From Bacillota bacterium (GTDB lineage Bacteria; Macinerneyibacteriota; Macinerneyibacteria; Macinerneyibacteriales; DSCS01), in NCBI GenBank assembly GCA_011048995.1, contig DSCS01000053.1, positions 1 through 40,350 on the forward strand: a stretch of DNA of 40,350 bases, written 5' to 3'. The position numbers and the translations under genes were made by a program. How positions within the stretch are numbered: the stretch's first letter is position 1; each line of letters opens with the position of its first letter. This document shows positions 5,851-20,841 of the stretch, in pieces. Below the pieces are notes generated by a model. The model made no database searches. It was not told where the DNA came from and saw only the letters and a program-made list of their open reading frames with translations.

Positions 5851-7143
5851 CTAAAAGACCTTATAACCCAGAATGAGATATAGATCAGTCCCCCATACCC
5901 TCCGCTCATCATCCTGGACCAATTCTTTCTCTTCTCTATGACTCAATCTCGCTTGGCTCTCAAGCGTAAGACGCGTCGTCAGAGCATAATATGCACGTGC
6001 TCCGAACCGATGCACCCTGCTACGCTGCAATTCAATCTCACCTTCATCCTTTTTGGAAAAATAATATTCATAAAATAACCGGAAAGAGCTCCGTGTGTCA
6101 GGAAAATACTGCAGTCCGGTTTCTAACATCACCCTTTCTTCCCGGGCGTTTTGAGAGGCTATGTTCATCCCCGTGTGATCATAATCAGCAGATCTCCATT
6201 CTGCTCCTGCTGCAAAGGACAGAAAACGATTGATGATCTTATAGTAAAAGGCCGAAGCACTGAAAAAGGGTCCGTTTTCCGTTTCTTTGGACTGCACTCC
6301 ATCCATCCAACGCCTATAGACATGGCTTTTCTGATAGCCGAAAGCCGATGAGAGCCTGGATCCGTTGAATCTTTCCGCCTCAAATTTATAAAGCATCATA
6401 TCCTGAAGAATGGCAAAATATTCAATATTCTCTTCCCGAAGCAGGTTTCTTTCCCTTAAGAAAGCATCAATGCGTTTAAAGTCTTCCATGCGTTTAAGAC
6501 GGCTATCCAAGACCCGTCCCTCTTCTAACTCACAGACCAGGTCCCCCAAAGCCCGGAGATCCTTATCTGCGGGATAACGGGTCAGTAAATCGTTATGATA
6601 AAGCTCATCGACGATAATAAGAGCTCTGACCATAGCGCTCATATCAAAGACCCTTCCGTACCCTATTCCCCCTTGAAGCCGGTTTTCAGTTTTATAATAA
6701 CGTTTATCCGTCTCCCGATAATTGGTATACTTCTCCTCATAACGAAATTCTTCGCCGGCAAGAACAAAAAAGCGCCCGCCGATATAATAACGTCCGTCAA
6801 AAGAGGCCGCTAATCCATAAAGTTTTTCATGCCGGGAGTCGTTATTATCCTTGAAGAGTGTGTAGCCGATATCGCCGCGCAGATGATAATCCGTTTCCCA
6901 TTTTTCTCTATAGAAATATCCGAAATAATGTCCTCCCAAAGATGTTGAAAAATAAGTGCGATAAGCTTCCTCTCCGTCTGTTTCACTGCTTTCCGCTGAA
7001 AAGATCAGGCCCGGAAAGGTAAATTCCAAACCCTGCCTGTGAAAATCCGGCAAGGTATAAGAGGAAAAGTCAAAATTCGGTTGTTCTCCATAAACAGAGG
7101 CCGTCAAAATCAACAACATAAAAAAATATATCCCTTTTTTCAT
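5851..7143 (-). CDS. Putative outer-membrane beta-barrel protein, second tandem paralogue
   Basis: Secreted protein of 430 aa with a signal peptide (about 1-19). The mature start FDFSSYTLPD and a central helical region (about 171-255: ALIIVDELY, LLTRYP, VLDSRLKRMEDFKRIDAF, ENIEYFAILQDMM) are shared with its upstream neighbour. Both flanks of that region show alternating aromatic/polar strands, and the chain ends LGYKVF, with the terminal Phe typical of the barrel-assembly signal. I do not recognise the family. The ATG at 7143 is preferred because AAGGTG lies six nt upstream; an upstream TTG at 7158 overlaps the previous stop. It likely shares a transcript with the upstream paralogue and the downstream cyclase. 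Confidence 0.7.
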   Translation of the reverse strand: MKKGIYFFMLLILTASVYGEQPNFDFSSYTLPDFHRQGLEFTFPGLIFSAESSETDGEEAYRTYFSTSLGGHYFGYFYREKWETDYHLRGDIGYTLFKDNNDSRHEKLYGLAASFDGRYYIGGRFFVLAGEEFRYEEKYTNYRETDKRYYKTENRLQGGIGYGRVFDMSAMVRALIIVDELYHNDLLTRYPADKDLRALGDLVCELEEGRVLDSRLKRMEDFKRIDAFLRERNLLREENIEYFAILQDMMLYKFEAERFNGSRLSSAFGYQKSHVYRRWMDGVQSKETENGPFFSASAFYYKIINRFLSFAAGAEWRSADYDHTGMNIASQNAREERVMLETGLQYFPDTRSSFRLFYEYYFSKKDEGEIELQRSRVHRFGARAYYALTTRLTLESQARLSHREEKELVQDDERRVWGTDLYLILGYKVF

Positions 7144-7154
7144 AATCATCACCT

Positions 7155-8465
7155 TCAAAATATTTTATAGGCCAGCTGGGCCTGAACTGTTCCGGAAACA
7201 ATCTCACGTTTATGGCTGTAAAAAGAATCATTGGTATTGATTCTTTTCCGCAATTGAGACTCTGCTGAAAAGGTCAGCCGAGACGAAAGATAATAGGAGA
7301 AATTAATCCCCAAAAAATAATCCCATTGGGACATCTGGTCTTCAATATAATAGGAATAACTTCCTTTTCTTTTCCCGTACATCCCGCCGATCTCAGCTTC
7401 TAAAACAGTCCGTGTATCCGGGTGCCAGGCTATTCCGGAGCGAAGCAGATAGGCATTTTCCGTCCGGTTTATCATTTCACTAAAAGAACCCGGGTAATCG
7501 ATGTCACCTGTTTCTTTCTTCCCCTGCCATCGGGCAGAAGCGGAAAAGACCCAATAACGGTTTAATATTTCCCGGTAAAGGAGTTGTGCAGAATAAATAT
7601 CACTTTTGTAGTTCTCTTTTATCAGAAAAAATGAATCCCACTCGTCATAGCGATGCCCTTGCCCTTTCCCCAGGCCAAAGGACATCTCATATCCCCGGCT
7701 CCAGCCGGATGGAGAAGAGTAGAAAAGCATATCATTCAAGAGAGAAAAATAGTCGATGTTTTCCGAAACAAGAAGCCCATGCTTTGCGAAGAAGGCGTCG
7801 ATTCGCTTCAAGTCCTCGATTCTTTTGATGCGGCTGTCATAGACACGGGTGTAACTCAAATCATATAAAAGGTCTGCCAAAGCATGCAGAACCTTTGTTT
7901 CCGGGTATTGGACGAGTAAGCCGGCCTCATAGAGTTCATCCACAATATAGAGGGCCCGACGCATATCATTCATCGGATTCATGCGTCCGTAACCGACCCC
8001 GGCTATGACATCGCCCCTATAAGAATGATAGTCACGCAAGTCCCCGGAGTCTTCATAATAATTCAGATAATAATCCCCCTGAAGAAAGAAAGGTTTCAGA
8101 ATATAGTACCGCAAATGACCCTGAGAGTCCGCATACATTTGATTCGTTTTGAATTTGACTGAACTTTCCTTTTCCCTGTTCAAAAATCCTGAAAGGCTTC
8201 CATAAAACTCTCCCTCCCATTGGTCAAGCCGGAATGTGCGCTCATAGAAGCCGTCAGCTCCAGCTCTGAAACGAGAATTCATAAAAGATTCTCCATTCTC
8301 TTTGATGCTTTGTGAATGATAATAAATCGGACACATAGACAAGGTCAGCTGATGAAGCCTGTGATCCGGGACAGTATAAGCTGAAAAGTCAAAGTCAGGC
8401 AACTCTGCCATGACAGCAGGCGCCAGGGCCAGAATCAAAAGTCCCAAAAAAAATGTCTTACGCAT
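7155..8465 (-). CDS. Putative outer-membrane beta-barrel protein, first tandem paralogue
   Basis: Secreted protein of 436 aa with signal peptide 1-20 (ending VMA). The mature start is FDFSAYTVPD. Residues about 168-250 form a charged, mainly helical stretch (ALYIVDELYEAGLL, YDSRIKRIEDLKRIDAF, ENIDYFSLLNDML), flanked on both sides by aromatic-rich alternating strands. The protein ends LAYKIF, which resembles a C-terminal barrel signal. It is clearly paralogous to the next gene along its whole length. No enzymatic motif is visible; possible roles are a porin, an adhesin or a structural barrel. An excellent ribosome binding site (AAAGGAGGATCT) precedes the ATG. It is the first gene of its unit, with a strong promoter overlapped by a perfect palindrome. 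Confidence 0.72.
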   Translation of the reverse strand: MRKTFFLGLLILALAPAVMAELPDFDFSAYTVPDHRLHQLTLSMCPIYYHSQSIKENGESFMNSRFRAGADGFYERTFRLDQWEGEFYGSLSGFLNREKESSVKFKTNQMYADSQGHLRYYILKPFFLQGDYYLNYYEDSGDLRDYHSYRGDVIAGVGYGRMNPMNDMRRALYIVDELYEAGLLVQYPETKVLHALADLLYDLSYTRVYDSRIKRIEDLKRIDAFFAKHGLLVSENIDYFSLLNDMLFYSSPSGWSRGYEMSFGLGKGQGHRYDEWDSFFLIKENYKSDIYSAQLLYREILNRYWVFSASARWQGKKETGDIDYPGSFSEMINRTENAYLLRSGIAWHPDTRTVLEAEIGGMYGKRKGSYSYYIEDQMSQWDYFLGINFSYYLSSRLTFSAESQLRKRINTNDSFYSHKREIVSGTVQAQLAYKIF

Positions 8466-8476
8466 AGATCCTCCTT

Positions 8477-8496
8477 TATACTGATGATTCAGTATA
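8477..8496. promoter_or_regulatory. Perfect 8-bp inverted repeat over the -10 box (candidate operator)
   Basis: TATACTGA (8477-8484), a 4-nt spacer TGAT, then TCAGTATA (8489-8496). The distal arm contains the -10 hexamer and the proximal arm covers the expected +1, the classical place for a repressor site. It could alternatively fold as a short hairpin at the mRNA 5' end next to the ribosome binding site. Confidence 0.5.
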
Positions 8497-8518
8497 ACAA
8501 TGAATTTTGGTTAGTCAA
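8491..8518 (-). promoter_or_regulatory. Sigma70-type promoter of the outer-membrane paralogue operon
   Basis: Minus-strand TTGACT (8513-8518) and TATACT (8491-8496), 16-nt spacer; expected +1 near 8484, about 19 nt before the ATG. Confidence 0.65.
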
Positions 8519-8608
8519 GAATTAAACCAATTGAATTGTGAAACATTCTCCTGCCCTCGGGTGTCCAAGTTGCAAAATCCATGGATCAACCTATCAAGGA
8601 GGTTTTTA

Positions 8609-9367
8609 ATGAAACGTTTCCCTCTCTGTTTTACCGTCCTTGTTCTTCTGCATGTGTCACTCTGGGGCCTCTCCAAAGAGGATGTCATTATCCCCATCTC
8701 AGACGGCCGCTCCATCCAGGCAACTGTCTACAAGCCGGAAGTCATTTCAAGCCCATGTCCGGTGGTGATCATCGCCCCCGGCAGCGGATATCACCGCGGG
8801 CTTCCCTTATTGGCTGGATTTGCGCAACGCTGCGCCGAGAAGGACATGATCGCCGTGACTTTCGACTGGCACTACTATTCTCAAAAGGAAAAGATCTCTG
8901 AAGGCCGGGTGCGGGAAAAAGAGGATCTCGCTGCGGCAATGGCTTATGTCCGTTCTCTGAAAGAAGCCGACAAGGAAAGTCTCGTCCTCGTGGGCAAATC
9001 CTTCGGCTCTGTCATCGCCTGGGACCATTTCCGCCGGGATACAGCATTGAGAGCGCTTATTCTCCTCACTCCCGTGATCCCCGATGAGGAGTATGAAGCC
9101 AAGCTCTACCCCGGTCTTTGAGAGGAAAACCGGCCTGTAGTCATGGGGCTGGGAGCGTCAGACAACGACAACGGGCCTCTGGAACAGATCTACAGGACCC
9201 TAAGCAGGTGTGAAAAGAAGATCCCTGTATTTATCCTTCCCGGTGACCACGGCATGAATGTGGGTTCCCGGGATGAACCCCTGTTCGAAATGATCAATGC
9301 GCGCAACATCCGCCTGACCATCGAAATCACATCACATTGGATCACTGTTCTTTTGGGGAAATATTAA
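8609..9367 (+). pseudogene. Alpha/beta hydrolase interrupted by an in-frame TGA
   Basis: One reading frame of 252 codons with TGA at codon 171 (9119-9121). A signal peptide (about 1-20) leads into an alpha/beta hydrolase fold: oxyanion region IIAPGSGYHRG (54-64) and nucleophile elbow G129-K-S131-F-G-S. After the TGA the same frame continues with EENRPVVMGLGASDND (candidate acid D185) and ILPGDHGMN (candidate catalytic H214). A product ending at the TGA would lack acid and histidine, so it would be inactive. AAGGAGG lies six nt before the ATG at 8609. The gene looks GC-richer than its neighbours and is the only plus-strand gene in this part. Probably a recent nonsense mutation (for example TGG to TGA); read-through cannot be excluded. 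Confidence 0.75.
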
Positions 9368-9448: not shown

Positions 9449-10813
9449 TCAACAGGAGCAAAGGCCCATTTTCTTTTTGGCTGCATCTTCTGCAGCTTTA
9501 AGAAGCGGATAAGCAGCCGGTGAGGCCGTCAATAACGGATGTGTTCCGATTTGGGAAACAAGAACAGCATTGATGTCCATTCTGTTTTGAATAATAAATC
9601 CCAAAGCATTGGTTAATTCTCCTATGGAAAGGCCTCCGGTTATTTCTCCGCCGAGAATGATCCCCGCTTCCTTGCCGACGATAAGCTTGACCGTTTGCTT
9701 TTTCATCCCGGGTAATTTTCCCGGATGTTTGTCGGGGCCTTCAAATTCTCCGGTGATAATATCAAAACCCTCTTCCAGGGCCCGTGACTCTGTCAACCCG
9801 GCTACACCGAAGGCATCCTCACCAAGGGCTGTAGCAAAAATGGAAATAGTCCCGCTGAACGTCTTGACCAAAGATAACTTAAAAAGGTTCATTCCCGCGA
9901 TACGGGCTTCGGCACAGGCAGTAGAAGCTAACATGGTCCCTATGCTCTTACGGGTCACAAAATCCTTCTTTTCAGCGCAGTCACCTACGGCAAAAATATT
10001 TTCATCTTCTGTGCGCAGATATTCATCTACTTTAACAGCACCGAATTCATTAAGAGGCAATCCGGCATCCGAAGCCAATCCCGTGTTAGGCCTGTATCCC
10101 ATGGCCAAGACAACGGCATCTGCCTTGATGCTTTCTCCGTTATCAAGAAGAACCTCTTCCACTTTACCTGTTCCTTTTATCTCTTTTACTCCGGCACCGG
10201 TCATTACTTTAACGCCGGTATTTTTTAAGATCTCTTCAGCTTTAGAAGCTGTCTTTTCGTCAAATGCTTTCCCTAAAATATGAGGCAGCTTTTCCACCAG
10301 AGTCACGTCAAGGCCGCTTTTATTGAGCTCATCTGATAGTTCGACGCCGATAAAACCTGCTCCGATCGTAACAACAGAACGGCAATTCTTTAAAGTCTCC
10401 TGCATCTTGTCCAAGTAAGCCTTATCCTTGGGAACGGTGAAAACATTCTTTAAATCAGCCCCCTTAAGCCAGGAGGGTATAAACGGAACCGATCCCGTCG
10501 CCAAAACAAGACGCTCATATGTTATGGTTTCTCCGCTTTCCAATCGGCATTCTTTTTTTCCCCGGTCGATGGAGACAGCTTTATCTTCAAGAAGTGAAAT
10601 GCCGAGTTTTTCAAACTGCCCTTCCACGGGGATCACATTATTATCTGTTTTCTCAACAGTGGAAAAGGCATAGGGAATCCCGCAAGGAACTAAGGTCTTT
10701 CCCTTCATGCGCAATACAGTCACGCTTTTTTGAGGATAGGATGTTTTTGCTGTAGCGGCGGCAACTAATCCCGCTGCAGAGCTTCCAATAATAAGAACAT
10801 CTGTCTTTTGCAT
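9449..10813 (-). CDS. FAD/NAD(P)-dependent pyridine nucleotide-disulfide oxidoreductase (CoA-disulfide reductase/NADH oxidase type)
   Basis: Flavoprotein of 454 aa. FAD-binding GSSAAG is at 10-15, the single redox cysteine C44 lies in LVPCGIPY (the position used by CoA-disulfide reductases and NADH oxidases/peroxidases), ATGS is at 105-108, the NAD-binding GAGFIG at 151-156, and the second FAD motif IFAVGDCAE at 273-281. A dimerisation domain completes the C-terminus, which ends CSC. Cytoplasmic; likely roles are thiol-disulfide control or NADH-dependent removal of oxygen or peroxide, which suits an anaerobe, but the exact substrate cannot be read from sequence. The ATG at 10813 has AAGGAG seven nt upstream; a GTG at 10819 is too close to that site. 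Monocistronic, with its own promoter and terminator. Confidence 0.88.
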   Translation of the reverse strand: MQKTDVLIIGSSAAGLVAAATAKTSYPQKSVTVLRMKGKTLVPCGIPYAFSTVEKTDNNVIPVEGQFEKLGISLLEDKAVSIDRGKKECRLESGETITYERLVLATGSVPFIPSWLKGADLKNVFTVPKDKAYLDKMQETLKNCRSVVTIGAGFIGVELSDELNKSGLDVTLVEKLPHILGKAFDEKTASKAEEILKNTGVKVMTGAGVKEIKGTGKVEEVLLDNGESIKADAVVLAMGYRPNTGLASDAGLPLNEFGAVKVDEYLRTEDENIFAVGDCAEKKDFVTRKSIGTMLASTACAEARIAGMNLFKLSLVKTFSGTISIFATALGEDAFGVAGLTESRALEEGFDIITGEFEGPDKHPGKLPGMKKQTVKLIVGKEAGIILGGEITGGLSIGELTNALGFIIQNRMDINAVLVSQIGTHPLLTASPAAYPLLKAAEDAAKKKMGLCSC

Positions 10814-10856
10814 AGGCACGCTCCTTTGTTAGCTTTAGCTATCATTTTATGTGCAT

Positions 10857-10884
10857 ATTATAACATATCATATGGCCGTGACAA
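10857..10884 (-). promoter_or_regulatory. Sigma70-type promoter of the flavoprotein gene
   Basis: Minus-strand TTGTCA (10879-10884) and a consensus TATAAT (10857-10862) with a 16-nt spacer; +1 near 10850. The leader holds a small palindrome TAGCT-TT-AGCTA (10830-10841) just before the ribosome binding site, which could be a regulatory site. Confidence 0.65.
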
Positions 10885-10892
10885 TTATTTTT

Positions 10893-11426
10893 TCACCTTT
10901 TTTGATAAATCTCTCCATCCCGGATGCTATAGTCCTTCTTTTTGAGATAAGCCCCTAAAAGAATAGAGGAAAGAAGGATCAGAGGCAAAGAAACGGAAAA
11001 ACGGATGGCGGTAAACTTCAGGCCCATAAAGGAGGCTTCAAAGACAGCCATAGGCACCCGAAATACTGCGGCGGCGCTGATGTAGGTAAAAATCACACTG
11101 AGTTTGGCCCCTTTTTTATAGAGGCTATGGGCAACGGGAAAGGCCACATAAAGCCCTCCCACCGTTGTCCCGGCTAAAAGAAGAGCCCAGATATAACCCA
11201 TGGAGAGAGACCCTTCTCCCAAATGCTTCTCAACAGTCTCTTTTTTCACCCACACTTCAAAAAGCCCGATAAGAATAAAAGCACAGAGGAGGATTTTTAT
11301 CATATCTAAAGTAAAAAGCCAAATTTTTCTTCCCATTTCTTCCCCCGGAGCAAAATTCATCAGGTAGGAAAGCCCCAAAAAAAGGATGAACCCTGCAGCG
11401 GCGATAATCCGGATTTTCTTTTTCAT
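10893..11426 (-). CDS. Permease (UPF0718/DUF318-like), C-terminal half protein
   Basis: Membrane protein of 177 aa with about four or five hydrophobic helices, resembling the C-terminal half of COG0701 predicted permeases (motifs LLAGTTVGGLYVAFPVAHSL and SAAAVFRVPMAVFEA). In many species both halves are one chain of about 300-350 aa; here the partner is the gene just upstream. The start ATG at 11426 overlaps the upstream TGA as ATGA, with GGGGAG upstream, so the pair is translationally coupled and likely equimolar. A longer open frame to 11702 exists but only overlaps the partner gene. Members have been linked to export of metalloids or other ions; the substrate here is unknown. Confidence 0.75.
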   Translation of the reverse strand: MKKKIRIIAAAGFILFLGLSYLMNFAPGEEMGRKIWLFTLDMIKILLCAFILIGLFEVWVKKETVEKHLGEGSLSMGYIWALLLAGTTVGGLYVAFPVAHSLYKKGAKLSVIFTYISAAAVFRVPMAVFEASFMGLKFTAIRFSVSLPLILLSSILLGAYLKKKDYSIRDGEIYQKR

Positions 11427-11985: not shown

Positions 11986-12010
11986 AAGAGGGAAACGATG
12001 TTTCCCTCTT
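11986..12010 (-). terminator. Intrinsic terminator of the RND efflux operon
   Basis: AAGAGGGAAAC (11986-11996), loop GAT, GTTTCCCTCTT (12000-12010): a perfect 11-bp stem beginning at the stop codon of the last efflux gene, followed on the minus strand by CTTTTGC. Confidence 0.75.
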
Positions 12011-15000
12011 TAAAGTTTATGCTTTTCCAGCTTTGCCACCAACGCAGTGTAGATCACCGGAATAATAACCAGGGTCAATATTGTGGAAGTTGTCAGCCCT
12101 CCTATGATCGTCACAGCCAGGGGCCGAGTCAATTCGCTGCCTTCACCGATCCCGATAGCTAACGGGACAAGGCCGAGGATCGTCGTTAACGATGTCATTA
12201 AGATCGGGCGGAAACGTAATTTGCCCCCTGTTTTAACAGCTTCAAGCAAACCGTAACCTTCTTCTTTTCTCAGCCTGTTGATAATATCGATTTTTACAAT
12301 AGAGTCGTTGACCACGATACCCACAAGGACCACCATACCCATAAGGCTCATAATATTCAGCGAGGTGTTTGTCATCAGCAGAAGGAGCAAAACGCCTATA
12401 AACGCCAGGGGAACAGCCAGGATGATGACAAAAGGCTGGAAAAAAGATTCGAACTGAACACCCAGAATCATATAAACCAGAATAAGAGAAAGGATAAAGG
12501 CAAATCCCAAGCCTGAAAAAGATTCCCGCATGTTTTCGATTTTTCCTCCGAATTTGATTTTGATCTTTCCTGTATCAGATAGCTGATAGAAGCTGTCTCT
12601 CGCTTTTTGGATGGCTTCTTCCAAAGAAAGGCCCTTGATATTACACATTAAAGAGACTTTTCTCCGCTGGTCTTCGCGTTTCAACTCATTAGGCACTTTG
12701 ACAACCGTCATATCGACAATGTCGCGAATTTTATAATCGAAGCCGTCAACCGTAATGATCTTTTCCAAAAACACATCATAATTTGGAGGACGTTCTTCAT
12801 TCTTGACCCAGATATTGATCTCTTTATCCGTATCATAAATCGTTGTTGCCAAATCCCCTACTGTATATTTTTTTAATTGCTCGATGACAACATAGAGAGG
12901 AGTATTGATCGTGTCGATAAAATAGTCCTTAAACCGCATTTCAATGATCTCCCGCTCTAATTCCATGTCTTTGAGGACCAAGCGGAATCCATTGATCTTT
13001 TCGATTTCCGGTTTAAGCCGGTCGGCTACAGCATTCAGCTCTTCGATCTCCTCTCCCTCCAGAATAACTTCGATGTCATATTCTCCAAAATCAAAAAACT
13101 GATTGTAAATACTCCCTGCAGAATAGAATGATATGGAGCCTTCTAAAGCCCCCAGCCGGCTCAAAAGATACTGTTTAAACGGTTCCACCTGACGCTTCTT
13201 TTTCATGGCGAACATAAAATATCCGGTATTTAAACCCGAAATGCTGTTGCTGTATGTCTTCCCAAGGTTCACCACATAATAATCGATCTTGTCTTGTTCC
13301 TGTTGAATAACTGATTCTACAAAACTGACATACTTTTCATTGGCCGCCATAGTCGCCCCTGTAGAAAGCTTATACTCCATGAAGAATTTATTCTCTTTGA
13401 CATCAGGAACGAACTCCCGCCTCAGAAAAAAGGAAAGCCCTGTGGTCAAAAGCAAGACTCCTAACGTGAGAAGCAAAGCTTTTCTTTTTTGGGCCAATGC
13501 TTTGTCCAGAACTTTCTCATAAAATTCCATGGCTTTTTCCAAAAAGGAGTCGAAAAAGTCAAACAGATTTTTGCCTTTCCGGACGACAAATCCATTTAAG
13601 TTCCGAATCATCCTTGAATCTTGAGCGAAGACCATGGGCACTAATGTCAAAGCGGCCAGGAGTGAAGCAAAGAGAGAAACCGTTATCACAAAGGCCTGCT
13701 GTTTGAAGAGGACAGCGATGACGCCTTTGAGATACAGGACCGGCAAAAAAACAGCAATGGTCGTCAAGGTCCCTGCAAGGATCGCCATGGCGACTTGAGA
13801 TGCTCCTTTCACGGCGGCCTCTTTAGGCTGAAGCCCATACTTCAGGTAGCGGTCCATATTTTCTAAAACAACAATAGAATTATCCACCAGAAGGCCGATG
13901 CCTATAGCCAATCCCCCCAATGAAAGAATATTAACGCTGATCCCCGCTAAATAAAGGGCGATGAAAGTGGCAATTATGGAAAGCGGCATTGAAAGTCCGA
14001 TAATAAATGGAGATTTAAAGTCATGTAAAAAGATGAAGAGGACGAAAAAGGCCAGTATGCCCCCGATGAGAATAGAGATGATCACATTATTAATAGCATT
14101 TTGTATGGTTTCCGAATCATCATACAGAATCTGAAGTCTCAGCTTGGGGTCTTCTTTGCGAAGATCTTCAATGAGGCTCCGGATCTCAGAAGAGACCTTG
14201 ACAGTATTGGCTGTTGAAGATTTAACGATGAGAAGCCCTATGCCGCGTTTCCCGTTGAACCGGGAAAATTCATCTAAGTCGGCCGCTCCACGCCTGATCT
14301 CTGCCACATCTTTCAGCCGGACATCCCCTTTGACTTTCATATTTCCTATCTCTTCAACGGTATAACGGCTCTTTTCCAGAGAAAGAGAATAAGAAAAATT
14401 CTCGTCACCGATTTCTCCGGCAGCACTCACAAAATTGTTCCGGCTCAACACGGTGGCGATTTCATTAAAAGTGATCCCGTAAGAGATCATGTTGCGGTTC
14501 GAGATAAGGACAGTGATCTCTTCTTCATCAGCACCCACCACATCGCAAAGAGCAACCCCTTCCAGGCGTTCAAAACGCCGTTTCAAGCTGTCAGATGCGT
14601 AATTACTCAATGTGAGAAAATCATAATCCCCTTCTACCATGATCTGCATGATCGGAGACTGGGCGGGGTCAAAATAAAGAATATTGGGTTTTTCCGCATC
14701 TCCCAGCTGTCCCGAAAGATTATCCAGCTTCTCCCGGGCCTTGAGCATCGTGTACTCCATGTTGACGCCCCAATAGAATTCCACGGTGATCAGGGACTTG
14801 GATTCTGTCGAGATCGAAGTGATCTTTTTGACATTGGGAAGGGTCCCCAATTGCCTTTCTATCTTTTGAGTCACATTGGTATCGACCTCTTCGGGAGGCA
14901 TGTTGGTCGCCTTTGTCTCTACAGTGATCTTGGGAATATCGATAGAAGGCAAAAGTTCGATATTGAGCATCTTAAAAGAAATGAGGCCCAGAAGAAGGAC

Positions 15001-15060
15001 GGCCATAAAGATCATGGTCGTCGTTACCGGCCTGCGGACAGAAAACTGAGGTAAGCTCAT
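12010..15060 (-). CDS. RND-family efflux pump, inner-membrane subunit (second RND gene)
   Basis: Inner-membrane proton-driven exporter of 1016 aa, the usual length of the AcrB/HAE1 family. It shows the N-terminal signature FSVRRPVTTTMIFMA, the TM4 motif GLAIGIGLLVDNSIVVLEN with one acidic residue D393 for proton relay (AcrB has two), and the TM10-11 block MGMVVLVGIVVNDSIV. Two large periplasmic loops follow TM1 and TM7. It is the last gene of a four-gene operon: its ATG overlaps the adaptor stop as TAATG and has GGAGGAATA upstream. It presumably works with the adaptor and TolC protein beside it; whether it pairs with the other RND protein in a mixed trimer is not known. Confidence 0.93.
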   Translation of the reverse strand: MSLPQFSVRRPVTTTMIFMAVLLLGLISFKMLNIELLPSIDIPKITVETKATNMPPEEVDTNVTQKIERQLGTLPNVKKITSISTESKSLITVEFYWGVNMEYTMLKAREKLDNLSGQLGDAEKPNILYFDPAQSPIMQIMVEGDYDFLTLSNYASDSLKRRFERLEGVALCDVVGADEEEITVLISNRNMISYGITFNEIATVLSRNNFVSAAGEIGDENFSYSLSLEKSRYTVEEIGNMKVKGDVRLKDVAEIRRGAADLDEFSRFNGKRGIGLLIVKSSTANTVKVSSEIRSLIEDLRKEDPKLRLQILYDDSETIQNAINNVIISILIGGILAFFVLFIFLHDFKSPFIIGLSMPLSIIATFIALYLAGISVNILSLGGLAIGIGLLVDNSIVVLENMDRYLKYGLQPKEAAVKGASQVAMAILAGTLTTIAVFLPVLYLKGVIAVLFKQQAFVITVSLFASLLAALTLVPMVFAQDSRMIRNLNGFVVRKGKNLFDFFDSFLEKAMEFYEKVLDKALAQKRKALLLTLGVLLLTTGLSFFLRREFVPDVKENKFFMEYKLSTGATMAANEKYVSFVESVIQQEQDKIDYYVVNLGKTYSNSISGLNTGYFMFAMKKKRQVEPFKQYLLSRLGALEGSISFYSAGSIYNQFFDFGEYDIEVILEGEEIEELNAVADRLKPEIEKINGFRLVLKDMELEREIIEMRFKDYFIDTINTPLYVVIEQLKKYTVGDLATTIYDTDKEINIWVKNEERPPNYDVFLEKIITVDGFDYKIRDIVDMTVVKVPNELKREDQRRKVSLMCNIKGLSLEEAIQKARDSFYQLSDTGKIKIKFGGKIENMRESFSGLGFAFILSLILVYMILGVQFESFFQPFVIILAVPLAFIGVLLLLLMTNTSLNIMSLMGMVVLVGIVVNDSIVKIDIINRLRKEEGYGLLEAVKTGGKLRFRPILMTSLTTILGLVPLAIGIGEGSELTRPLAVTIIGGLTTSTILTLVIIPVIYTALVAKLEKHKL

Positions 15061-16223
15061 TATTCCTCCGTACCGTCTTCCCCGCCGTTAAGCACAGTCA
15101 CGGCGGCCTTATGGTTTAAGACATAATGTCCTTCCACAATAATGGTTTCTCCCGCTTTGAGTTTATCTTCAATGACAACAAACTCATAATTTTCAGGGCC
15201 CACATCCACATAAGTCCAGTAGCCCAGCCCTTCTTTAACGACAAAGACAAGCTTTTTTCCGTCCCTTTCCAAAACCGCTGCTTTAGGGACTAAAACCTTG
15301 TCTTTGATCAGATCCATTTGTAAAAGCACATCACAGAAAACTCCCGGATAAAGCTCTCTTTTTTCGTTAGAAAGTTCGACCACGGCATAGGTAGAATTAT
15401 CGTCATAGATCAGGGGATTGACGGAAAAGACACGCCCGGTATATTTTTCATCAGACACTACAGGAAAAATAACAGCATTCGCCCCTTCTTTGACATGATG
15501 AATATCTTTGACCAGTATTTTTGCTTTAATACGTAAACGGCTGATATCAGCAATGCTCAAAACGGGCTTCCCCGCCTGAAGGTATTCTCCCTGTTTAACA
15601 TCTATTTTGCCGATCACACCGGAAAAAGGCGCGCGTATCGAACATTTTTTGTAGTTTTCAAGGGCCTGCTTGAGAGCCAACTCCTGCTCGCCCAAGCGGT
15701 ATTTGATGCGCTCTCGGGTAATCGTCCCTTCCTGAAGCCCCAAGACGACCTCCTGCTGGATCTTGGCCACTTCTTTATCATCAGAGTAGAGGTCTGTCTG
15801 CTCCACGGCAAATCCCTCAAATCCTTCCATATCTTCAGAAATGGCCAGATATTGAATATAGGATTTTTTATAATCCAAGAGGGCTTTTTCATAGTTGATC
15901 TGATAGGTGGGATTATCAATCGTAAAAAGCAGCGTTCCCTGGCTTACCACCTGCCCTTCTTTCACCTTGATGTTGATATTCCCGGCGACTTCAGCGATAT
16001 AATCGTTGACACGAATTGCTTCCAGTTTCCCTGAAGACGAGACGTAAAGAGGAAGATCCCCCTGCCATGACTGAGTCACTTTGACAGGGACAGGAGCCGC
16101 CAAAGGCTTGCTGGTATCTTCTGCTTCAGCAGCTTTCCCTTTGAAAAAGAGAAACCAGGCTCCCAAAGCTGACAGAGCCAAAATTAAGACGATGATGAGT
16201 GTGACCAGAACCTTTTTTTTCAT
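15060..16223 (-). CDS. RND efflux periplasmic adaptor (membrane fusion protein)
   Basis: Adaptor of 387 aa linking RND pump and TolC. It has one N-terminal membrane anchor (about 5-27), two half lipoyl-like segments (about 70-105 and 195-230, the second with CSIRAPFSGVIGKIDVKQGEYL), an alpha-hairpin between them (108-190), a beta-barrel domain (about 235-315) and a membrane-proximal domain to the end. There is no lipobox, so it is anchored by its helix. It overlaps the TolC gene by 4 nt upstream and the RND gene by 1 nt downstream. GGAGGAATTGTT precedes the ATG. The substrate is unknown. Confidence 0.92.
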   Translation of the reverse strand: MKKKVLVTLIIVLILALSALGAWFLFFKGKAAEAEDTSKPLAAPVPVKVTQSWQGDLPLYVSSSGKLEAIRVNDYIAEVAGNINIKVKEGQVVSQGTLLFTIDNPTYQINYEKALLDYKKSYIQYLAISEDMEGFEGFAVEQTDLYSDDKEVAKIQQEVVLGLQEGTITRERIKYRLGEQELALKQALENYKKCSIRAPFSGVIGKIDVKQGEYLQAGKPVLSIADISRLRIKAKILVKDIHHVKEGANAVIFPVVSDEKYTGRVFSVNPLIYDDNSTYAVVELSNEKRELYPGVFCDVLLQMDLIKDKVLVPKAAVLERDGKKLVFVVKEGLGYWTYVDVGPENYEFVVIEDKLKAGETIIVEGHYVLNHKAAVTVLNGGEDGTEE

Positions 16224-17617
16224 AACAATTCCTCCATGATCTCATTGCTATTACCGACATATGAGCTGATTTCCAGGGCGGTGAGATTATAATATTTTAA
16301 CAGGTTTAAATACTCTAATTCCGAACTGATATACTCGTCTTCAATATCCATAAGCTCCTGCAAAGTGATCGCACCGATATGAAAACGGGAAAGGCTGGAG
16401 CGGTAATTCTCTGCCAAAGTCGGCAAAATCACCTGAAATAGCTCGATTTTTTCTTTGTATATGTCCAGCTGTGTCATCAGTTTTTCAAACGAGATCCCAA
16501 CAATTTCTTTTTCATCTTCATAACGGTTTTTTTCCTGAAGATAATTGATCTTCTCCATCTTTAACCCTGCAACCTTGGATAAGTTGGCAAAAGGGATAGA
16601 GAGGACAAGAGATGCCGTATAACGGTCCCTTTCCAAAGGCCCGGGAGACGAGGCTCCCTCAGCTGAATAGGTCGCTTCCAATTCACCGAAAAGCGCAGGC
16701 TCATAGGCCCGCCGTTTGAGTTTGTAATTGCGCAGAGCATTGTCCAACAGGATCTTCTGACTATCTGTTTTTGCCTGCGGGCTGCATTCACGGAAAAGGT
16801 CATAACTGATATTGATGATCTTCTTTTCAGGATCTTCAAAAGGCTCGTTCAGATAAAGCTCCATCTTTTTATCGGCTTCTTTCAATTGCATTTCGGCTTC
16901 TTTTAGCGCCATTTCCAAAAAGACATGGCGCTTTTTTATTCTGTTGTAGGTGATGAGGTCCGTCAACCCCATTTTATAACTGTTTTCCGTAGCCTTAAAT
17001 ATATCACGGTAACGCTCTGTCTGGCCTTTGTTTAATTCATAATTCCGGAGAAGGGACAAATAATCCAGATAATTTTCATAAGCGCTTCTCAGGAAATTCA
17101 AAACGTTTTGATCCCGTTTGATCTCACTTTCACGGCGGCTGTTCAGCCAGCGTTTTAAACGGTGAAATCCGGCATTGCTCCCCCACAAATATTGCCGGAC
17201 CGTCAATGTCAAACGTCCTGTTGCAAAACCGCCGTCAATTTCGGCATCGCCTGACTGATAGGTAGTATAATCACTGTAATGGAAAACAGTCTGTATTTCC
17301 GTATTCGTTGGGAGAACCTGATTGAGTATGGCACGCCCTCCGTAGAAAAGATATTCATTTTCATATTCGACGCCAAGGCCTTCATACCGCTCTATAGCAT
17401 TACTGTATGACGGAAGGTAAAACTCAAAATCGATTTGAGGAAGAATTGCGGAAAAATCTGAGCGGTAAGACCACGCCGCATAGCGGTCTGCCAACTCCAG
17501 ATCGCGCCCTCCGTCTCCTTTTTCATAGGCTTTCCTGAGATACTCTCTGAAATCCAATGCTGATCCCTGAAAAATCAACAAAGAAAAAAGAACGATAACA
17601 ATAATCGTGCGCTTCAT
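16220..17617 (-). CDS. TolC-family outer-membrane efflux protein
   Basis: Outer-membrane channel protein of 465 aa with signal peptide 1-20. Long amphipathic helices with the TolC repeat pattern are visible twice (for example ENYLDYLSLLRNYELNKGQTERYRDIF near 185-215 and SSLSRFHIGAITLQELMDIEDEYISSELEYL near 405-440). In the family three subunits form a barrel and periplasmic tunnel. It sits between two pump genes: it overlaps the upstream RND gene by 4 nt and the downstream adaptor by 4 nt, and GGAGGTCTTC precedes the ATG. Role in drug, metal or metabolite export is inferred from family and operon. Confidence 0.9.
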   Translation of the reverse strand: MKRTIIVIVLFSLLIFQGSALDFREYLRKAYEKGDGGRDLELADRYAAWSYRSDFSAILPQIDFEFYLPSYSNAIERYEGLGVEYENEYLFYGGRAILNQVLPTNTEIQTVFHYSDYTTYQSGDAEIDGGFATGRLTLTVRQYLWGSNAGFHRLKRWLNSRRESEIKRDQNVLNFLRSAYENYLDYLSLLRNYELNKGQTERYRDIFKATENSYKMGLTDLITYNRIKKRHVFLEMALKEAEMQLKEADKKMELYLNEPFEDPEKKIINISYDLFRECSPQAKTDSQKILLDNALRNYKLKRRAYEPALFGELEATYSAEGASSPGPLERDRYTASLVLSIPFANLSKVAGLKMEKINYLQEKNRYEDEKEIVGISFEKLMTQLDIYKEKIELFQVILPTLAENYRSSLSRFHIGAITLQELMDIEDEYISSELEYLNLLKYYNLTALEISSYVGNSNEIMEELL

Positions 17618-20600
17618 GAAGACCTCCGTCTGTTTTTTCGTTTTTTAAATTTCTCCTTTAAGGAGCCTATAAATTTCGCCGCATAGGCTGCATAACGGGG
17701 CAAATGCTTCACGTGGTGCGGAATCCGTTTTGTTTCCTTCCAAATAAGGGCCGGCATCTTCCTCCACCGAACAGCCCTGACCCATGAAAGAAATCCCGTC
17801 CCCGAATAAGGTTTTTCTCCCGGCGTTTTTTTACTGAAGAAGAAATAAAGGATCGGCATAAAAGTCAGCGTAAAGAAGGTCGAGGTGGTCAACCCCCCCA
17901 CTGTAGCATAACTTAAATGCTTCCAAATATCCGCTGTAGAAGAATCATCGCTCTTATCTTTCAAAAGAATAATGGGAAGGAGTCCCATGATCGTGGTCAG
18001 TGACGTGATGAGAATAGGACGGATGCGGTCTGAAGCTCCCAGAATAATACCGAAGGCCCTCTTTACGCCTTTTTCGCGTCTGAGATGATTGATATGATTG
18101 ACCATAATAATCGCATTATTGACAACGATCCCGGCCAGCAGCATCGAACCCATAATCGCATGCACCCCGAAATTGAGCTTGAATATCTTATAGAGCCAGA
18201 TGACACCCACAAAAGCCAGAGGCAATGTCAACAGAATAATAAACGGCTCCGTATAACTTTCATATAAAGCGCCCAGTATCATATAAATCAGAATAATCGC
18301 AAACCCCAGAAGAATAAGGATCTTATTATAATCAGTCTCTTCATCCCACCAACGGTAGGCATCGTCTTCAATTTTCAGCGAAAAGCCCGGCGGATAGAGG
18401 ATATTGTCTCTCAGCCCCTCTTTAAACTGCTTATCTGTCTGGTCTGAGCTCGAAAAGTCATAAGAGATGGGATAGGAGTAAACCTGGTCTTCTCTTTCGA
18501 TGTAACGGGTACTGGCTTCTAAATCAATATCAGCCACATCAGTAAGCTTGACGCCATGCGCCAAATAAAGGTTTTTTAATTCATAAAGGCCGATCTTCTC
18601 TTCGGGAGCCAGAGTAAAATTAATATAATCGCGTCCTAACTTCACCGTATTCTCTATGGTATACTCCGAAACAAGACTACGCACTTTTGAAGCGACATCA
18701 TTCAAAGAGAGCCCGTAAATATCCAATTTTTCAGAATCGATTTTTAAGACAGCTTTTTTTACCGAGGAGGTTGTCACTTCTCCCAGTTTGACATCAGAAA
18801 TCTCCCTGAAGGAGAGAAGGATAGTCTTGAATTTTGCGGCCTCCTCTTTCAGCCGGGCATAATTATAGCCCTGAAGCCAGACAGTCGACTGATACCGGGT
18901 TCCCCCCATAAACCCGCCGCCGCCGAAATCAGGCCCTATTCCCCAAACCCGGACATTGACCTGTGACATGCGGTTGCCGTAAACTTTTAATTTTTCTCTT
19001 AAAGCATACGCTTCGGCACTTCCCTCGAAATCCTTTTTGAAGTATATAATGATCTGTCCACGGGTCTCGGAGATAGATGTCCTGTAATACTCTATGATCT
19101 CATTCCCTTCAACAAGTCCTTCAAACTGATTCACGGCAGCTTTCAATCGGAAATCGGGGACATTGGTCTCAGGGTAAAATATGCAGCTGAGCTCCGGAGG
19201 ATACTCGAAACCTCCCCACGAAAAACTGCTTTTATCAACATCCTCAATAAAGACATAAAGGCTGTAGCCGATAATAAACGCCATAAGCGCTAAGGCCACC
19301 CATCGGATACGAAGAAGAAATCCGACATATTTTTGATAATACCCGATCGCCTTGCTTTTCGACTTTCTTATTTTTGATTCGATGTGAAAATAGCTGAAAG
19401 CAATGGGAATCAAAGAAAAAGAAATAAAAATAGAAGCAATCAGGGCCACAACAATTGTCTTGGCAAAAGGGATATAATAGACTTTCAGTTCTTCCTGAAG
19501 AAAGACAAAGGGAAGAAGAACACATACTGTTGTCACCGTTGAAGCGATAATCGGGATAAACATTTCCTTAAAAGAAAGAGCGATAGCTTCTTTGACCCGT
19601 TTCCCTGAATAGTAATGTTTATGAATGTTTTCATAGACCACAACAGCATTATCCACCAGAAGGCCGAAAGCCAGTGCTATACCGCTGAGAGTAAATTTAT
19701 TCAGGCTCTCTCCGGCAAAAAAGAGATAATTGATTGCAAACGAGACAGAGAGGAAAATCGAAGACATCGTAATCAATGAAGGCTTGACATGGCGCATAAA
19801 AGAGAAGAGGACAAGGAAGATCGCCAACACAGAGACGAGGATCTTGACAAGGATAGTGCTGTACCCGTCCAAGACCTTTTCCCCCTCGTTATCGGCCACT
19901 TTACAGAGAATACTGGGATTGTCCCTTTGCATCGACTCCAGTTTTTTAAGGACAGCCTGTGAAACAAGGATGGCATTAGCATCTGCGGCTTTGGTCAAAA
20001 GGACATAGACTGCCGGCTTCCCGTTTATTTTATGAATCGTCTGGGGCTCTTCATCCCGAAAAGAGGCTTGAGCTACCTGAGATAGCCTGACACCGTTCCC
20101 CATGTCCCAGTTCCCTATATTTTGCAGATCCATATCGTTGATGAAGGAAATATAAAGCCTTTTGTCACGAAAGCGAACATGACCCATGGTAATCTTTTTA
20201 TTCATGCTCATGACTTTTTCTACAATAGAATAAAAAGAGATATTGTACTGCTCAATAGCAGCTTGATCATAGGCGATTGAAAGTTCCCTTTCCATTCCCC
20301 CGTAAATTGAAATTCCTGAGACACCCGGGATTTCCGCCAACTCCCGTTGAAGGTCATCTTCTGCGAATTGCGTCAACGTATACCCGTCCAGAATATCGCT
20401 GGAGAGATAAAGACTGAAAAAAGTGTCCTCTCCGATTTCACGGGGAACATACGGGTGAACAGTGGGCCCGCTGACTTCCTGAGGTAATTTATCCTTTATC
20501 GATGAGATCTTTTCATTGACAAGAAACATGATGAAATCAGGGTCCGCTTTCCGTTCCAATTCCACAGTAATACGGCAGTACCCTGTTGATGTTACAGACG

Positions 20601-20841
20601 ACACGTCGAGGACACCCCGTACAGCCGCTAATTCTTCCTCGATGACCGATGTCACATATTTAATGACATTTTCGGGAGATTGATTAGGAAGGCCCGCAGT
20701 GACAGTCAGCCGCGGATAATCCACGACGGGAAGGTCTTCTTTGGGGATTTGATAAAAGGCATAGATCCCCGTGATCAAAATCACAAGGAAGATGAGAATA
20801 AACCCTTTGGGCCTGTGAGTAACCAAGTCTGAATATGCCAT
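17614..20841 (-). CDS. RND-family efflux pump, inner-membrane subunit (first RND gene)
   Basis: Exporter of 1075 aa, first gene of the efflux operon. It has the RND N-terminus with THRPKGFILIFLVI, TM4 motif GIALAFGLLVDNAVVVYEN with D397, and the TM10-11 block MGSMLLAGIVVNNAIIM. Odd features are a Gly-rich periplasmic loop (FGGGGFMGG near 640) and a C-terminal extension of about 60 residues that is strongly basic (ends KFKKRKNRRRSS) and must be cytoplasmic. It is clearly different in sequence from the second RND gene 2.5 kb downstream. The start ATG has no ribosome binding site and lies six bases after a -10 box. Confidence 0.93.
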   Translation of the reverse strand: MAYSDLVTHRPKGFILIFLVILITGIYAFYQIPKEDLPVVDYPRLTVTAGLPNQSPENVIKYVTSVIEEELAAVRGVLDVSSVTSTGYCRITVELERKADPDFIMFLVNEKISSIKDKLPQEVSGPTVHPYVPREIGEDTFFSLYLSSDILDGYTLTQFAEDDLQRELAEIPGVSGISIYGGMERELSIAYDQAAIEQYNISFYSIVEKVMSMNKKITMGHVRFRDKRLYISFINDMDLQNIGNWDMGNGVRLSQVAQASFRDEEPQTIHKINGKPAVYVLLTKAADANAILVSQAVLKKLESMQRDNPSILCKVADNEGEKVLDGYSTILVKILVSVLAIFLVLFSFMRHVKPSLITMSSIFLSVSFAINYLFFAGESLNKFTLSGIALAFGLLVDNAVVVYENIHKHYYSGKRVKEAIALSFKEMFIPIIASTVTTVCVLLPFVFLQEELKVYYIPFAKTIVVALIASIFISFSLIPIAFSYFHIESKIRKSKSKAIGYYQKYVGFLLRIRWVALALMAFIIGYSLYVFIEDVDKSSFSWGGFEYPPELSCIFYPETNVPDFRLKAAVNQFEGLVEGNEIIEYYRTSISETRGQIIIYFKKDFEGSAEAYALREKLKVYGNRMSQVNVRVWGIGPDFGGGGFMGGTRYQSTVWLQGYNYARLKEEAAKFKTILLSFREISDVKLGEVTTSSVKKAVLKIDSEKLDIYGLSLNDVASKVRSLVSEYTIENTVKLGRDYINFTLAPEEKIGLYELKNLYLAHGVKLTDVADIDLEASTRYIEREDQVYSYPISYDFSSSDQTDKQFKEGLRDNILYPPGFSLKIEDDAYRWWDEETDYNKILILLGFAIILIYMILGALYESYTEPFIILLTLPLAFVGVIWLYKIFKLNFGVHAIMGSMLLAGIVVNNAIIMVNHINHLRREKGVKRAFGIILGASDRIRPILITSLTTIMGLLPIILLKDKSDDSSTADIWKHLSYATVGGLTTSTFFTLTFMPILYFFFSKKTPGEKPYSGTGFLSWVRAVRWRKMPALIWKETKRIPHHVKHLPRYAAYAAKFIGSLKEKFKKRKNRRRSS

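Follow-up and report, generated by a model that had tools for sequence, protein, structure and literature searches.

Two adjacent genes of a Bacillota bacterium (Macinerneyibacteriota according to GTDB), which attracted attention as uncharacterized outer-membrane paralogues, raise the question of what kind of protein they encode and what such a protein could do for the cell. The window, i.e., the whole stretch of 40,350 nucleotides that was analyzed, represents one entire contig (DSCS01000053.1) of a genome comprising 1.88 Mb in 75 contigs (GCA_011048995.1). The first gene of the pair, P0002 (positions 7155..8465, minus strand; open reading frame list and AlphaFold), encodes 436 amino acids from an ATG start, and the second gene, P0001 (5851..7143, minus strand), encodes 430 amino acids from the ATG at 7143. 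The architecture of these proteins and the existence of the family to which they belong are firm results. Regarding their function, we tentatively propose, with a probability of roughly 0.4, that both genes encode 14-stranded porin-type barrels of the outer membrane with a periplasmic helical plug, acting as an envelope or osmotic-stress pore of an uncatalogued family.

Predicted fold and conserved regions of the pair

In the AlphaFold model of P0002, calculated with 11 aligned sequences, six strands are followed by four helices and eight further strands (mean predicted local distance difference test score, pLDDT, 76.9; predicted template modeling score, pTM, 0.69), which corresponds to a 14-stranded barrel interrupted after strand 6 by an insert of four helices. 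The complete order of P0002 is signal peptide, FDFSAYTVPD start, strands 1–6, four-helix insert, strands 7–14 and C-terminal Phe, and P0001 follows the same layout by alignment. The insert covers residues 164–256 of P0002 (7698..7976, minus strand; AlphaFold/DSSP and conservation), with helices at residues 167–180, 190–205, 212–228 and 238–247 (AlphaFold/DSSP), and was placed at about residues 172–264 of P0001 (6367..6645, minus strand) by alignment to P0002. A family member from Zixibacteria (L039), modeled with nine other sequences, is 18% identical to P0002 in alignment A7, yet its predicted order of strands and helices equals that of P0002 (pLDDT 78.8, pTM 0.69). Structure prediction, recommended by the initial annotation as a check, hence returned a barrel with an inserted four-helix domain in both models, and in P0001 by alignment. 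For this class of barrels, an even number of strands and the periplasmic location of both termini are established. With this geometry, the turn that follows strand 6 should face the periplasm, and the roughly 90-residue four-helix domain would be carried in this turn.

P0001 and P0002 are true paralogues, sharing 142/442 identical residues (32%, E 1e-61), which rules out a chance resemblance of two open reading frames. All motifs described previously as common to both proteins were recovered (FDFS[SA]YT[LV]PD, IVDELY, DSR[LI]KR[MI]ED, KRIDAF and ENI[ED]YF), as were the common signal peptide and the C-terminal Phe (ends YKVF and YKIF). It had also been claimed that the central part is better conserved than the strand-rich flanks, and this was borne out by identities of 46/81 (57%) in the helices vs. 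26/116 (22%) in strands 1–6 and 48/171 (28%) in strands 7–14 (Fisher p = 4e-7). The further suggestion that the helical insert is the functional core is based on conservation, which the N-terminal start and the GYGR motif share. Because the N-terminal start is conserved to the same degree (10/17 identical between P0001 and P0002), the conserved unit consists of this start, the GYGR end of strand 6 and the helices, not of the helices alone. The GYGR motif of P0002 (7983..7994, minus strand) is part of the strongest family signature, G-x-GYGR, which was observed at the end of strand 6 in P0001, P0002 and the copy of the sister species. Mean pair identities in the broad alignment A6 (15 rows) amounted to 0.55 for the N-terminal start, 0.65 for GYGR, 0.46 for the helices, and 0.31 and 0.30 for the strand regions. 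It is conceivable that N-terminal start, GYGR turn and helices form one periplasmic module plugging or gating the barrel. Within the insert, an internal duplication (two helix-G-L-L-helix units) was no more than hinted at by hhalign (score 14.8, with 30 column shuffles reaching at most 13.4; probability 9%).

In structural comparisons of the P0002 model (Foldseek and VIA), CymA ranked first (E 9e-18; Z 22.9, root-mean-square deviation, rmsd, 3.7, 292 aligned residues). OmpG reached Z 17.7 (rmsd 4.5 over 268 aligned residues), and the FadL/TodX families about Z 15. CymA, the cyclodextrin porin of Klebsiella oxytoca (TCDB 1.B.26; PMC4827864), resembles P0002 as a 14-stranded monomer-type barrel and is its best match by predicted structure; however, structurally aligned residues are about 10% identical, and the 311-residue chain of CymA lacks a counterpart of the 80–90 residue helical insert. 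OmpG and FadL/TodX likewise represent 14-stranded barrels, but are 7–8% identical and feature a different plug or none. The barrel itself is thus of a known 14-strand porin type.

A broad family absent from the catalogues

In agreement with the initial annotation, which knew of no described family with this layout, neither window protein matches Pfam, NCBIfam or PHROGs. Pfam porin families gave no match to P0001 or P0002 up to E 10, and the FadL/Toluene_X family of Pfam gave none up to E 10 for these two proteins and none up to E 1 for nine relatives, whose core was also free of Pfam and NCBIfam matches. A C-terminal OmpA-like peptidoglycan-binding domain, as in OprF/OmpA, was not matched by Pfam in the window proteins, and their C-terminal half is predicted to form strands 7–14. 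Neither P0001 nor the three-row profile A1, of which P0002 is a row, matched a chain of the PDB up to E 10; sequence kinship with CymA was not detected by these searches, though the PDB contains CymA chains. The few rows at E 0.08–0.37 in the family and PDB searches were far below cut-offs or short. Literature searches of open-licence PMC text, aimed at an uncharacterized barrel with a helical domain, at PF05552 and at barrels in connection with Ignavibacteria and mechanosensitive channels, likewise yielded no description of this family.

A single-sequence search, matching 2 of 98 genomes with nothing confirmed in the genome contig set, would have implied a family private to one genus. This was overturned by the three-row core profile, which 31 of 386 genomes pass at E 0.1, about a dozen of them with the full layout by eye. 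L018, L031 and L036, among others at this threshold, are unrelated proteins and were dropped before alignments A3–A6 were made. Profile A6, built without the window proteins, matched 17 of the 386 genomes, from many families, at E 1e-3, and found the window genome (P0001) at E 1.3e-6 and the sister-species genome G001 at 9.4e-4. In the class of an Ignavibacteriaceae genome, 31/245 genomes matched at 1e-20. Profile–profile comparison of A1 and A6 resulted in a probability of 98.6% (E 9.6e-16, 386 columns), and the window profile reached members of the broad family down to 4.9e-8, i.e., the match between the window genes and the broad family is significant in both directions. Records of named members refer to Gemmatimonadota, Zixibacteria, Bacteroidetes, Poribacteria and Ignavibacteriaceae. 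A tree of 59 rows unites the window genus, on long branches, with L010 and L011, which belong to other phyla or families (99% in the Shimodaira–Hasegawa-like approximate likelihood ratio test), and G636, a genome from the phylum of L010, contains a further match at 1.9e-20 repeating the DSR-KRIED motif. Judged from these profile and tree data, the window pair is a divergent branch of a broad bacterial family that is absent from the catalogues searched.

Within their own genome, P0001 and P0002 represent the sole clear copies; a further weak match (E 0.017, contig C15) covers a short stretch of a gene that appears protease-like by eye. The one same-genus genome, G001, harbors a single copy that is 38% identical to P0001, and the pair therefore arose by duplication in this species or was reduced by loss in the other; the tree leaves P0001, P0002 and the G001 copy unresolved. 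Regarding other members, L015:430-2202 (G150) carries an N-terminal SH3_3 domain (E 2.8e-11) ahead of the barrel; this domain could attach to the cell wall, as the OmpA-type domain does in other porins. In L166 (Poribacteria, the genome of L044), two members are located at 7974-9119 and 10049-11308 in near-tandem arrangement, with one gene of 272 amino acids between them.

Linkage to mechanosensitive-channel genes in relatives

Mechanosensitive-channel genes were first noticed beside several members when their neighborhoods were read, and the linkage was then tested. A search for PF05552, representing MscS-type proteins, covered 52 genomes, including G298 and the sister of G000; 50 genomes of the set had a member at E 1e-3 or below. 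PF05552 was matched in 29 of the 52. In seven of the 52 genomes, the PF05552 gene directly adjoins the barrel gene, six times on the same strand and once divergently. Random placement would predict about 0.07 such genomes (P = 5e-13 for at least seven, 7e-7 for at least four), in a test with gene and copy counts entered by hand from tables and ignoring kinship among genomes. Among 58 neighborhood stretches, seven feature a PF05552-type gene, all within 150 bases of the barrel gene and none only farther away; in L142, both genes overlap by 4 bases. The seven linked loci require six label changes on the tree, so that the linkage is not confined to one clade. Six of the linked proteins were confirmed by Pfam to contain PF05552, in 2 to 4 copies each, and two of them also show a weak MscS beta-domain. 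MscS genes were located within 4 kb in five loci, a cation-chloride-cotransporter-like gene within 4 kb in three loci and at 5 kb in a fourth, and CorA in three loci, two of which are related and have it 4 bases downstream, whereas it is 1.6 kb distant in the other.

In L142, L145 and L043, the pair of PF05552 and barrel genes is preceded by an extracytoplasmic function (ECF) sigma factor gene, the frame of which is broken by one TAA in L043 (G389). For the two intact linked sigma factors, the best of 18950 NCBIfam models was NF007222 SigX (93 and 98 bits). The linked sigma factor is also the best SigX match of its genome in G573, G630 and G389 (92.6, 97.0 and 94.7 bits; next 86.5, 79.4 and 78.2), which contain 6, 7 and 9 SigX matches, respectively, and the SigX model was not among the best 25 models for each of four other ECF factors. 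We take this model to be built on Pseudomonas; since no control genome passes its cut-off, Bacillus subtilis included, it does not represent the Bacillus SigX. G391 contains a second PF05552 match, separated by 370 bases from a SigX-like gene located where the contig ends.

These gene sets recall a locus of Pseudomonas, in which oprF, encoding an OmpA-type protein, presumably lies directly downstream of sigX. For P. aeruginosa, one study locates cmaX (CorA homologue) and cmpX (MscS homologue) upstream of sigX and mentions OprF in the same context (PMC7641640), and another describes cmpX as directly adjoining sigX on the upstream side and as controlled by SigX (PMC10965496). Between them, these studies also place cfrX upstream of sigX and cfrX-cmpX under SigX control. 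Similarly, some members of the broad family are encoded beside a SigX-like ECF factor and a PF05552/MscS-type gene, and elsewhere beside CorA. Unlike this locus, the order in the relatives is sigma factor, MscS-type protein, barrel, and OprF was not homologous in any of the searches. The combination of SigX-like sigma factor and PF05552 beside the barrel gene was present in L043, L142 and L145, and the window pair lies outside such a locus. Taken as an analogy, the parallel is one of gene sets and not of homologous barrels.

Based on linkage in these relatives, members of the family may act as the pore in the outer membrane within a module that responds to envelope or osmotic stress. Its partner would be an inner-membrane MscS-type protein (CmpX-like) encoded beside the barrel, to which a SigX-like ECF sigma factor, CorA or a cation-chloride cotransporter would sometimes be added, as OprF accompanies SigX and CmpX. 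The window pair, as a divergent duplicated branch, probably keeps the pore role outside the stress gene cluster; since it lacks the stress-gene linkage, its proposed function derives from kinship with distant relatives.

Several observations weigh against this proposal. PF05552 was not matched at E 1e-3 in 23 of the 52 member-bearing genomes, and 51 of the 58 neighborhood loci show no PF05552-type gene within the stretch. The seven linked genomes do not represent entirely independent events, and genes are taken to be placed at random in the chance model. One PF05552 gene each is present in the window genome and its sister, on contigs other than those of the barrel genes. All SigX matches are below the model cut-off of 194 (0/9 genomes over it), and the linked sigma factors with their 93 and 98 bits are consequently not SigX members by that rule. 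Furthermore, mean pLDDT ranges from 76.9 for the best to 40.2 for the poorest of five AlphaFold models of P0002, the helices of which are predicted with only moderate confidence. Member neighborhoods vary widely as well.

Indeed, one constant neighborhood across the family was ruled out, since neighbors differ between loci. The commonest neighbors by count, namely genes for dihydrolipoamide dehydrogenase, dapF and E2 (9–11 loci), all originate from one clade (L146–L154, class of G390), in which the barrel gene is located between dapF and the dihydrolipoamide dehydrogenase gene in nearly every genome; this gene order is probably inherited. In the window genome, a PF05552 gene linked to the pair was not found, the single such gene being located on contig C1 beside other genes. 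In two unrelated genomes (L180:4029-5822 and L182:4012-6040), a gene for a secreted beta-rich protein, which we assume to be DUF3078-like, directly precedes a PF05552 gene, perhaps representing another barrel type paired with MscS-type genes.

Surroundings of the pair and competing functions

Mechanical calling of the P0001 open reading frame gave 5851-7158 with a TTG start at 7158 (435 amino acids), but the ATG at 7143 is the likelier start. It sits 11 bases past the P0002 stop, and both genes are therefore probably located on a single transcript. By eye, a promoter-like site (TTGACT, 16 bases, TATACT; 8491..8518, minus strand) and a ribosome-site-like AAAGGAGG (8470-8477, minus strand) were recognized 5' of P0002. 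The pair is flanked by a putative cyclase gene downstream (PF04199; 5191..5835, minus strand) and a divergent alpha/beta hydrolase gene upstream (PF20408; 8507..9121, plus strand), and the copy of G001 resides between the same two genes in a conserved block. The hydrolase is shorter than its counterpart, ending about 90 residues before the 294-residue copy of the sister species; its frame continues after the stop with similar sequence to about 9400, suggesting either a recently acquired stop codon or an error in sequencing. Positions 12010-20841 (minus strand) comprise four genes with overlaps of a few bases, by eye encoding a resistance-nodulation-division (RND) pump, a membrane-fusion protein, an outer-membrane factor and a second RND pump in one operon. 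Among the 98 nearest-relative genomes, one belongs to the same genus, one to the same order and the rest to the same domain only; with so few near relatives, the organism represents a little-sampled lineage.

Given the CymA match, the proteins could instead be substrate-specific uptake porins for oligosaccharides or similar compounds, with the helices forming a nutrient-selecting constriction and the stress linkage being lineage-specific rather than the core role. A glycosyltransferase gene two genes downstream of the barrel genes in both species would fit, but it belongs to family 2, usual in envelope synthesis, and no sugar-uptake or degradation genes recurred beside members when neighborhoods were inspected by eye. 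Moreover, the L039 model, for which OmpG or CymA ranked first, ties CymA with OmpG (Z 16.1 and 15.8), so that the CymA match reflects strand number. We regard uptake as unlikely.

Slightly less likely still is a non-conducting barrel, sealed by the helices at its periplasmic end and serving as surface lectin, adhesin or structural protein. The precedent is Wzi, an 18-stranded, capsule-binding barrel in which a bundle of helices blocks the periplasmic end (PMC3791409), and for which no sequence relation to the window proteins was found. The loop-bearing strand halves also diverge fast (22% and 28% vs. 57%), as surface loops do. Against this, no capsule gene set was seen beside members by eye, and the linkage to MscS-type, cotransporter and CorA genes favors a role in solute or ion balance. 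Wzi and the pilus ushers are not among the structural matches listed, which excludes nothing. An export channel, whose helical domain would act as a docking plug and open upon contact with a partner in the periplasm, similar to secretion channels that carry plugs, is very improbable: the insert does occupy the place of the pilus usher plug, between strands 6 and 7, and a set of RND efflux genes, which begins 3.5 kb downstream from the hydrolase gene and is likewise present in the sister species, could provide the partner, but this set has its own outer-membrane factor-like gene (16220-17617, by eye), and no export system recurs beside other members.

An envelope or osmotic-stress pore hence remains our preferred, if tentative, assignment. 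A bolder extension, to which we give little credence, is that the family represents the outer arm of an ancient two-membrane stress valve, in which a CmpX/MscS-type inner protein and a helix-gated 14-stranded pore act under a SigX-like sigma factor, the helices sensing tension or touching the partner, so that the outer membrane would be opened simultaneously. In this case, the sigX-cmpX-oprF locus of Pseudomonas would exemplify a more general arrangement, in which unrelated porins occupy the same position.

If the proposed pore function is correct, a multi-phylum barrel family absent from Pfam, NCBIfam and PHROGs would gain a defined architecture (a barrel with an inserted helical domain) and an initial clue to its function. 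In organisms with overlapping genes, it could then be tested by which route solutes leaving through inner-membrane mechanosensitive channels pass the outer membrane, and whether outer-membrane pores are tied to this release. Annotators would also gain a signature, G-x-GYGR followed by about 90 helical residues, for many proteins currently designated as hypothetical.
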